From Halorussus pelagicus (GTDB lineage Archaea; Halobacteriota; Halobacteria; Halobacteriales; Haladaptataceae): 64,000 bases of DNA. Each line of letters begins with the position of its first letter. Position 1 is the stretch's first letter. The DNA lies in assembly GCF_004087835.1 (NCBI RefSeq), contig NZ_CP035119.1, forward strand, positions 2,604,001-2,668,000, in the 5' to 3' direction. Shown piece after piece: positions 57,520 through 59,015 of the stretch. Both the position numbers and the translations under genes were made by a program. The notes under the pieces were generated by a model, which was not told the DNA's origin, did no database searches, and was given only the letters and a program-made list of their open reading frames with translations.

Positions 57520-57882
57520 ATGAGTTTCACGGAGCGAATATCGTGGCGGACAGTCGGCCTTAGAGCGTTCGTACTGGCGATTCTTGCTGTCGGAAGCTTC
57601 TTCCGGAGCGCACCGGCGGCCATTTTCCTCGCGTCGTTGGCGTACGTCGTCGCGCAGGCAGTCCACCTGCGGTCGTTGTCCAAGCGGCGCGCCGAGTCGT
57701 TCGTGACACTGGTCACGTCGTCGGGATTGGTCCTCCGGCGCGGCGTTCTCTGGGCGCTCATCGCGCTGGCTGTGCTGTACGACCTGCTAATCGCCCAAGC
57801 GGTCGCGCTGGCGCTCGCCTCGGTGACGCTCGTCTACGTCGGAGGTCTGTTTACGCAGGCGGCGCGCGAACCGTCGCCATAG
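57520..57882 (+). CDS. Small membrane protein
   Basis: A 120-residue protein with three or four hydrophobic helices (about residues 13-28, 33-48, 73-88 and 90-112) and a basic cytoplasmic loop (RSLSKRRAES). No family is recognised. It is divergent from the ABC operon and ends 14 bases before the left arm of a long inverted repeat. Confidence 0.6.
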   Translation: MSFTERISWRTVGLRAFVLAILAVGSFFRSAPAAIFLASLAYVVAQAVHLRSLSKRRAESFVTLVTSSGLVLRRGVLWALIALAVLYDLLIAQAVALALASVTLVYVGGLFTQAAREPSP

Positions 57883-57895
57883 GTTCCTCGACCGA

Positions 57896-57936
57896 TTTCG
57901 TTTAAGTGCTTCTGGCGACAACGGATAGATACGAGG
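57896..57936 (+). repeat. Left arm of the 41-bp inverted repeat
   Basis: This arm matches the reverse complement of 58917-58957 at 39 of 41 bases, with the first 29 bases (57896-57924) identical. It contains a TATA-like CGTTTAAGTG pointing rightward, toward the 3' end of the RNA polymerase epsilon gene. About 60-100 bases further on, degenerate copies of the TTGCCAGC repeat unit follow, as they do after the right arm. Confidence 0.8.
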
Positions 57937-58034
57937 AAGATTCGTTCGCCGTTTTCCTGCGGTTTTTCTCTGCCGTCGATTCCCTTGCAGTTTCAGCTAT
58001 CACCCTTGCCAGCTATCGCTCCTCGTCGGTCTCG

Positions 58035-58775
58035 TCACTCGTCAGTCTCGTCAGTCCGGCGAGCGTCGAGGCTCGGCAGGTTCGGGTCTCGCTGGGGGTT
58101 GCGACCGTACACCGCGTCTTCGAGGTGCTGGTCGGCGAGTTGCTCTTTCAGGGTGCGCCGGAGTCGGTTGAGACTGGTCACGTTCAGTCCGTGCTTCTCC
58201 ACGAGGTCCGAGAACTGCGGGTCGTCGGTGATGGACCGGAACCGGTCGTAGAGGTCGCCGAGTCGGTCCGGCGGGAGTTGCCCGATCCACTCCTCGTCGT
58301 GGAGACCGAGGTAGTGTTCGCGCTCGCGGTCCACGACGTGGCGGATGACGACCAGCGCGACCTTCGGAATCGCGCGCTGGCTTCCGAACGCGGTCAAATC
58401 GAGGTCAGACATGATGCCGACCACGCGGTCGCGTTGCCACGTCGTCAGCGACAAATCGTTGCAGAGCGCGTGGGAGATGCGGAGTTTGTCGAGGCGGTGC
58501 ATCCGCGAGCTATGGCCCGCCATCGCCGAGTGGCGCTCCTCGTGGAGGCGACGAACGCTCTCGGAGAGGTCGGCGTCGGGCGACTCGGCGCGGCCGATTT
58601 GGGTTGCGCTCGGCGTGACTGGTCCCCACTGGCGCACCGTCTGGTCGCGCTGGAGGTCCGCCCGGCCGACCGCCCCGTCGCCGGGGCGCTGGCTGAGCGG
58701 TCGGTCGGCGTCTCGGTCGTCGTGTGGTCCCGACTGCCACGTCGGCAGCGAGTCCGTCCACCCCTCGGTCATCAC
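58035..58775 (-). CDS. rpoeps: Haloarchaeal RNA polymerase-associated protein (epsilon)
   Basis: A 246-residue, largely helical protein. The centre (RRLHEERHSAMAGHSSRMHRLDKLRISHALCNDLSLTTWQRDRVVG, about 75-120, then LTAFGSQRAIPKVALVVIRHVVD) and the end (YGRNPQRDPNLPSLDARR) match the haloarchaeal family annotated as DNA-directed RNA polymerase subunit epsilon, a protein without a bacterial counterpart. The first 50 residues are low-complexity. The gene lies inside a 41-bp inverted repeat and has a repeat-bearing upstream region. Confidence 0.75.
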   Translation of the reverse strand: MMTEGWTDSLPTWQSGPHDDRDADRPLSQRPGDGAVGRADLQRDQTVRQWGPVTPSATQIGRAESPDADLSESVRRLHEERHSAMAGHSSRMHRLDKLRISHALCNDLSLTTWQRDRVVGIMSDLDLTAFGSQRAIPKVALVVIRHVVDREREHYLGLHDEEWIGQLPPDRLGDLYDRFRSITDDPQFSDLVEKHGLNVTSLNRLRRTLKEQLADQHLEDAVYGRNPQRDPNLPSLDARRTDETDE

Positions 58776-58824
58776 CCGGCCGTACTCGGCGGGGATAGTT
58801 GAAACATGCGCCTCTCGGGAACGT

Positions 58825-58884
58825 GAGAAGACGCATCGCTGGCAAGAGAAGATATCACTAGCAGGCGAAGACGCATCGCTGGCA
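58825..58884 (-). repeat. Three tandem repeats of about 20 bp upstream of RNA polymerase epsilon
   Basis: Copies at 58827-58844 and 58867-58884 are identical over 18 bases; a diverged copy (about 58848-58863) lies between, giving a period near 20. On the minus strand the unit reads TGCCAGCGATGCGTCTTC. Related GCCAGCGACTCGCAGG units occur at about 58966-59010 and degenerate ones after the left inverted-repeat arm. They would lie in the leader of a transcript started at the right arm. Confidence 0.75.
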
Positions 58885-58916
58885 GGTGTAGCGTCCGGTA
58901 GAACGTCGCCGACTTC

Positions 58917-58957
58917 CCTCGTATCTGCCCGTTGTCGCCAGAAGCACTTAAACGAAA
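58917..58957 (-). repeat. Right arm of the 41-bp inverted repeat
   Basis: Reverse complement of 57896-57936 with two mismatches. Read on the minus strand it carries the same TATA-like CGTTTAAGTG, facing the RNA polymerase epsilon gene about 170 bases away. It may be a duplicated promoter with a long leader, or one end of an invertible or mobile segment. Confidence 0.8.
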
Positions 58958-59015
58958 ACGCCGACTCGCTCTGTGAGTCGCTGGCGTCGCCCTGCGAGTC
59001 GCTGGCACCCGCCCG

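Follow-up and report, generated by a model that had tools for sequence, protein, structure and literature searches.

An extended promoter-like element surrounds the RNA polymerase epsilon gene and co-occurs with it in Halobacteriales

The gene for RNA polymerase subunit epsilon in Halorussus pelagicus lies between two inverted copies of an element that joins a TATA box to a conserved motif in the spacer between that box and the predicted transcription start. Among 293 Halobacteriales genomes, 141 of which carry a strong epsilon gene, this element is present almost only where epsilon is present, as would be expected of a sigma-like relationship: it occurs in 137 of the 141 genomes with epsilon and in one of the 152 without. 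Judged by their sequence features, the two copies are very probably promoters of one class, and the account that we favour, with a confidence somewhat above even, is that of an autoregulated, epsilon-dependent promoter class. According to this account, the right copy would be a distal promoter of epsilon beside an ordinary proximal TATA box, and the left copy would start a short convergent RNA just past the 3′ end of the gene. The spacer would be read by RNA polymerase carrying epsilon, or by epsilon within the initiation complex, and epsilon would activate its own gene together with a small lineage-specific set, which would include menA in Halorussus and genes for DsbA-like proteins, nucleotidyltransferases and acetyltransferases elsewhere. 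As a by-product, the inverted copies would recombine and flip epsilon over evolutionary time, with the promoter retained.

Inverted arms around the epsilon gene

The window, by which we mean the whole 64,000-nucleotide stretch of DNA that was analysed, contains two arms (57896-57936 and 58917-58957) that are identical in inverted orientation at 39 of 41 positions, each with CGTTTAAGTG oriented inward, exactly as a sequence-only reading of this locus had claimed. A repeat finder extends the arms to 57893-57936 and 58917-58960 (44 nt, 93%), separated by a gap of 980 nt; at random, 64 kb of sequence would contain about 3e-9 such arm pairs. The same reading had named the gene inside the repeat as that of RNA polymerase epsilon, and its annotated orthologues on plasmids of Halorussus halophilus (NZ_CP044526) and H. 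vallis (NZ_CP100002) bear this name. The features of the locus, in window coordinates, are as follows.

57520..57882, plus strand: open reading frame for a small membrane protein, its end 18 nt short of the left TATA box; relatives in genomes G012, G017 and G026
57893..57936, plus strand: left arm, an extended promoter copy aimed at the 3′ end of epsilon; the core pattern is matched perfectly
57901..57908, plus strand: TATA box TTTAAGTG of the left copy; from the sequence and its conservation in 235 non-redundant copies
57910..57924, plus strand: conserved spacer TTCTGGCGACAACGG of the left copy, at about -21 to -7; from the alignment of copies
57929..57933, plus strand: predicted transcription start of the left copy; from archaeal promoter geometry, about 30 nt past the start of the TATA box
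57934..57949, plus strand: GAGGAAGATTCGTTCG, start-proximal and special to convergent copies; from comparison of convergent with upstream copies
57952..57971, plus strand: T-rich tract past the convergent copy, a possible terminator; TTTT in 9 of 14 against 2 of 16 copies
58035..58772, minus strand: RNA polymerase subunit epsilon gene (alternative GTG start at 58775); by homology
58795..58804, minus strand: proximal TATA-like box TTTCAACTAT of the ordinary leaderless type, 32 nt before ATG 58772; conserved
58900..58904, minus strand: GTTCT in the predicted early transcribed region; from the enrichment of TTCT at +38 to +65
58917..58960, minus strand: right arm, an extended promoter copy predicted to drive epsilon; core-pattern match and repeat finder
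58920..58924, minus strand: predicted transcription start of the right copy, giving a leader of about 150 nt
58929..58943, minus strand: conserved spacer TTCTGGCGACAACGG of the right copy; from the alignment of copies
58945..58952, minus strand: TATA box TTTAAGTG of the right copy; from the sequence and its conservation among copies

Two further repeats were seen nearby. An imperfect 25-nt direct repeat, TGCCAGCGATGCGTCTTC, lies at 58827-58851 and 58867-58891 in the predicted epsilon leader, and a 21-nt tandem direct repeat (86%) lies at 58966-59007, past the right arm and near the end of the gene for a HalX response regulator.

Architecture of the element

The consensus of the element is TTTAAGTG, exactly 2 nt, TTCTsGysAyAAsGG and then a start region, which is AGATACGA in most families. 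Aligned copies from the family to which the window belongs read TTTAAGTG, two free bases, TTCTsGysAyAA, and then GG followed by AGATACGA; elsewhere in the order the start-side half is sometimes TTCGTAGTGAG, with the TATA box and spacer unchanged. The register is fixed: when 0 to 8 nt were allowed between TTTAAGT and TTCT, the gap was exactly 2 in 68 of 68 matches, and a reversed-pattern control gave 0 in every genome searched. In 235 copies made non-redundant by their downstream sequence, and with the first T of the TATA box as the origin of coordinates, positions that had not been selected by the pattern were conserved in the BRE region (-10 to -1) and at +34 to +37. GTTCT is conserved at +38 to +65, where TTCT was found in 174 of the 235 copies compared with 35 of 235 further downstream, and a yAGC motif is weakly enriched at +60 to +85 after elements generally. 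A second binding site was also considered in the TTCT that recurs some 40 nt downstream, which is enriched although flexible in its placement.

The arms had previously been read as promoter-like, and the BRE and TATA sequences and spacer in fixed register, lying at a set position upstream of genes and followed by a suitable start region, bear this out. Archaeal transcription usually starts about 30 nt past the first T of the TATA box, which places the spacer motif at about -21 to -7 and the predicted starts nearer 57931 and 58922 than the 57925 and 58928 given before. Outside about -10 to +40 the copies have almost nothing in common except the loosely placed GTTCT, and the earlier suggestion that the segment had been carried as a unit is not supported by this. 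It is likewise extremely improbable that the arms are remnants of a mobile or repetitive element, even though there are 1-17 copies per genome, many of them plasmid-borne, since the copies lack common flanks, sit between genes in exact promoter register, and have a conserved length of about 50 nt that fits a promoter. The plasmid copies in particular were considered as a mobile unit, a reading that was rejected since their flanks are unrelated.

The spacing of the copies raises a different reading, in which the elements would be genes of a small RNA family of about 50-110 nt and the flanking protein genes would be incidental. The next start codon on the same strand lies mostly 108-160 nt past the TATA box, most tandem copies are spaced by 110-170 nt, and the distance to a convergent gene end is mostly at least 97 nt, so that about 100-160 nt are kept ahead of whatever comes next, be it another element, a start codon or a convergent stop codon; in addition, 46 of 159 copies have a convergent gene next, and a GC hairpin with TTTT follows some elements. 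However, RNA structure is not in excess downstream of the elements (mean z about 0), an Rfam scan of the region gave no above-chance match near the arms, and conservation does not continue past about +40 save for GTTCT and the weak yAGC. Moreover, with next genes assigned by a codon-based gene caller, a same-strand gene comes next for 110 of the 159 copies and is often orthologous between species. We thus consider a small RNA family very unlikely, and the reading of the element as a promoter class is retained.

A distal and a proximal promoter for epsilon, and a convergent copy

The most likely start of epsilon is ATG 58772, and its ordinary TATA box, at 58804-58795, is conserved upstream of the gene in nearly all genomes of the window's family (f1). 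The element would therefore be a distal, second promoter of epsilon, and the transcript with a long leader would be only one of two. The long leader had been anticipated from the right arm, which would indeed give about 150 nt, but the proximal box of leaderless type had been missed.

In Halorussus and Haladaptatus, one copy lies upstream of epsilon and another is usually aimed at its 3′ end. The convergent copy is found in 23 of the 28 family genomes, where it lies 104-201 nt past the 3′ end of epsilon (a distance that runs to where the profile match ends), and both copies are found in 20 of the 28. In most of the convergent copies in Halorussus, GAGGAAGATTCGyTCG stands next to the predicted start, with a T-rich tract behind it; TTTT follows 9 of 14 convergent copies in this genus compared with 2 of 16 upstream copies. 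The prediction of convergent transcripts from both sides of the gene consequently survives in part: the convergent arrangement is conserved, whereas a long antisense RNA is doubtful, because the T-rich tract after the copy makes a short transcript likelier. The convergent copy could possibly provide negative feedback by collision, or it could give rise to a short antisense RNA at the 3′ end.

Co-occurrence of the element with epsilon

The distribution of the element across the 293 genomes was compared with that of one gene family, epsilon, using a long pattern and a core-only pattern. The long pattern found the element in 117 genomes, 116 of them epsilon-positive, and the core-only pattern added 21 genomes, all epsilon-positive (many were checked directly). 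For the two patterns together, Fisher's test gives a P of about 5e-78, a value that ignores kinship, close relatives not being independent. The single genome with the element and without epsilon, G167, is 87% complete and belongs to a genus that is otherwise positive; its contig stops about 190 nt past the last element, and the sequence there is unrelated. Conversely, four epsilon genomes (G153, G166, G219 and G223) had no match to the element by either pattern, and in G153 a near variant lies upstream of epsilon.

Part of this association is trivial, since the copies usually include the promoter of epsilon itself. Its informative part, as far as sequence can tell, is formed by copies distant from epsilon in clades where epsilon is patchy. 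In family f5, G244 is both the sole genome with a strong epsilon gene and the sole genome with the element, and six of its seven copies are distant from epsilon. In family f15, epsilon is found only in G065 and G088 of 10 genomes, and elements are found only in both of these; 4 of 5 and 7 of 8 copies, respectively, are distant from epsilon, on several contigs. Genus g48 has the element elsewhere in the genome, with none found upstream of epsilon, and none of the copies listed for G183 is near epsilon. It is this co-occurrence that suggests a dependence of the element on epsilon, and a promoter motif that is gained and lost with epsilon even at distant loci would make promoter choice by epsilon directly testable.

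The main rival to such a dependence is that an ordinary DNA-binding regulator, or a particular TFB paralogue, recognises the spacer and has been co-inherited with epsilon, in which case epsilon would be a conserved target of it. Archaeal regulators often bind next to the TATA box, the window's genome has about eight ordinary TFBs, no sequence homology of epsilon to DNA-binding families was found, and some HTH genes are preceded by elements. The neighbours of epsilon, however, vary, from HalX and wHTH genes in Halorussus to DsbA-like or nucleotidyltransferase genes elsewhere, and the plasmids of H. halophilus and H. vallis have neither neighbour set; since the neighbours differ between lineages, no neighbouring gene is a candidate for the regulator. 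Furthermore, the motif is one-sided and in fixed register with the TATA box and start, unlike a dimeric operator. We consider a co-inherited regulator unlikely, though a serious alternative, and continue to favour recognition of the spacer by epsilon.

Several separate observations on the gene family were made in the same genomes. Weak epsilon-like matches, of about 1e-11 to 1e-20, were seen in 11 genomes (G047, G161, G177, G283 and others) and at G088:C7:140293, and a match in G163 reached only 2e-4. These hint at a second, distant family in genomes without true epsilon. In addition, the plasmid epsilon genes of H. halophilus and H. vallis are surrounded by copies of the element.

The epsilon protein and comparison with known factors

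Relatives of epsilon at 70-85% identity are found in Halorussus, Haladaptatus and Halococcus. No model for epsilon exists in Pfam or NCBIfam, and Pfam shows neither a DNA-binding domain nor a recognisable TFIIB repeat in the protein. Compared by sequence with Pfam, NCBIfam and PDB families, epsilon gave no convincing homology, and a profile comparison with the genome's own TFBs gave none either (hhalign probability below 1%); phage records gave no match, and no epsilon relatives were found in viral contigs. AlphaFold predicted a confident all-helical core, both for the full protein and for residues 53-231. The best PDB match of this predicted core in Foldseek was 7o4i_M (probability 0.97, TM 0.44, weak E of 0.28), followed by Brf2 and cyclins. 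The entry stands for chain M in a pre-initiation complex of yeast RNA polymerase II, and we take this chain to be TFIIB. The predicted core thus weakly resembles TFIIB, which is a lead and not proof. That epsilon is a promoter-selectivity factor, reading the motif between TATA box and start at its own gene and at a small lineage-specific regulon and doing so with a cyclin/TFIIB-like fold, is a tentative proposal that we hold at just under even confidence. As a side observation, a 116-aa open frame at G000:C1:79162-79419, in the window's genome, matches a single TFIIB repeat, in addition to the roughly eight ordinary TFBs encoded there.

Epsilon was reportedly found with the RNA polymerase of Halobacterium in 1983. 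The window's gene belongs to the same family as epsilon of Halobacterium salinarum (OE_1279R, rpoeps), with relatives across the order. According to a published account (PMC8305020), native templates can be transcribed by purified RNA polymerase that carries epsilon; it is for the Halobacterium protein only that co-purification with the polymerase and its stimulation are known. The biological relevance of epsilon is termed enigmatic (PMC8305020), and the literature searched describes stimulation on native templates, with no promoter preference or promoter element found in it. The same literature search, with few subscription journals in its scope, found no report of the motif or of epsilon-dependent promoters.

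The proposed class would resemble bacterial alternative sigma regulons in having a polymerase-associated factor and an extended core-promoter motif at a fixed distance, and, by analogy, in its autoregulation and its small, lineage-variable regulon. It differs from them in that the machinery here is TBP and TFB, the motif lies between the TATA box and the start, and the dependence on epsilon is putative; nor is epsilon related to sigma factors in sequence above chance, with one weak NCBIfam match among 28 members. The selection of promoters by TFB and TBP paralogues in Halobacterium (TbpD/TfbA, PMC2121645) is alike in that variants of basal factors define promoter classes; in contrast to that system, the candidate here is a polymerase subunit and the motif occupies the spacer from TATA box to start. 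If the account is correct, some archaea would place sigma-like control on a polymerase subunit instead of on TBP and TFB.

Inversions at the Halorussus locus

The epsilon locus in Halorussus has conserved flanks, ABC(-) ... HalX(-) wHTH(-) GlmU(+), between which the gene is found in both orientations: 9 of 14 genomes, including that of the window, have it one way and 5 of 14 the other. Two well-supported sister pairs, G026/G012 and G013/G023, differ in the orientation of epsilon, and well-supported branches of the tree force at least three changes of orientation. Between G012 and G026, whose flanks are about 93% identical, the alignment switches between direct and inverted inside the element on both sides of the gene. 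By these comparisons, the arms have served as inversion endpoints between species, and the recurrent flips of epsilon show that a gene can be rearranged through inverted copies of its predicted promoter and still retain one.

It had also been suggested that the segment is invertible, and a phase-variable switch that alters epsilon expression within a population might be read into the two orientations at one locus, with their three or more changes, and into the crossover inside the element in G012/G026. The first part of the suggestion agrees with the inversions between species that end at the arms. A regulatory on/off switch does not follow, because the crossover falls upstream of the leader, which is turned together with the gene: epsilon would still lie behind an element after a flip, and its predicted promoter is kept in either orientation. 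Moreover, the inverted pair is missing from two genomes, and in others as many as 15 of 44 positions differ between the arms; a scan of the six neighbouring proteins revealed no recombinase, and plain homologous recombination is enough to explain the inversions. The likeness to fimS-type switches is confined to inverted repeats around a segment found in both orientations, which here means in different species; unlike in fimS, it is the gene that flips and the promoter lies within the arms, so that no switching off is expected, and no recombinase was recognised nearby. We accordingly give a phase-variable switch very little credence and read the flips as a by-product of the paired promoter copies.

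In G012, G014, G017 and G024 (loci L262, L264, L266 and L271), a lipoprotein-like gene of about 476 aa lies between copies of the element next to epsilon, and relatives have this gene inverted or lack it. In G014, G017 and G024 it is flanked by further copies, and in G012 the same gene is found across epsilon in the other orientation. The arrangement looks as if elements bounded cassettes.

Further copies and downstream genes

Searching the window's genome for other copies of the arm had been proposed as a check on this locus, and the search found exactly one further, third copy, 129 kb away and upstream of menA; the arm is hence not specific to the epsilon locus. This copy points into menA, a gene of the UbiA family, which is preceded by the element in nine Halorussus genomes and carries a weaker GCTATTG at roughly the position of the proximal TATA box of epsilon. 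A 20-nt piece of the arm, with at most 2 mismatches allowed, was found 1-6 times per genome in 24 of the 28 family genomes, and its reversed control never.

Upstream of epsilon, the element is present in several families, often as 2-4 tandem copies. Other genes that it precedes encode DsbA-like proteins (f13), a nucleotidyltransferase and an acetyltransferase (f8) and, once, HisG; on Haladaptatus plasmids it precedes a wHTH gene, with a PIN-like gene next. By sequence, then, the putative regulon is small and varies between lineages, and the element supplies both a list of candidate regulon genes and a design for reporters.

Among the downstream genes, a toxin-antitoxin-like pair of a wHTH (DUF7437) gene and a PIN-like gene recurs behind the element at loci L146 and L153 and on Haladaptatus plasmids, and genes for SWIM zinc finger and SprT-like proteins recur near such pairs. 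At locus L045 (G027:C3:114054-114555), four tandem elements lie upstream of a gene for a TetR-type regulator, and several of them are directly trailed by a GC hairpin and TTTT in an attenuator-like arrangement.
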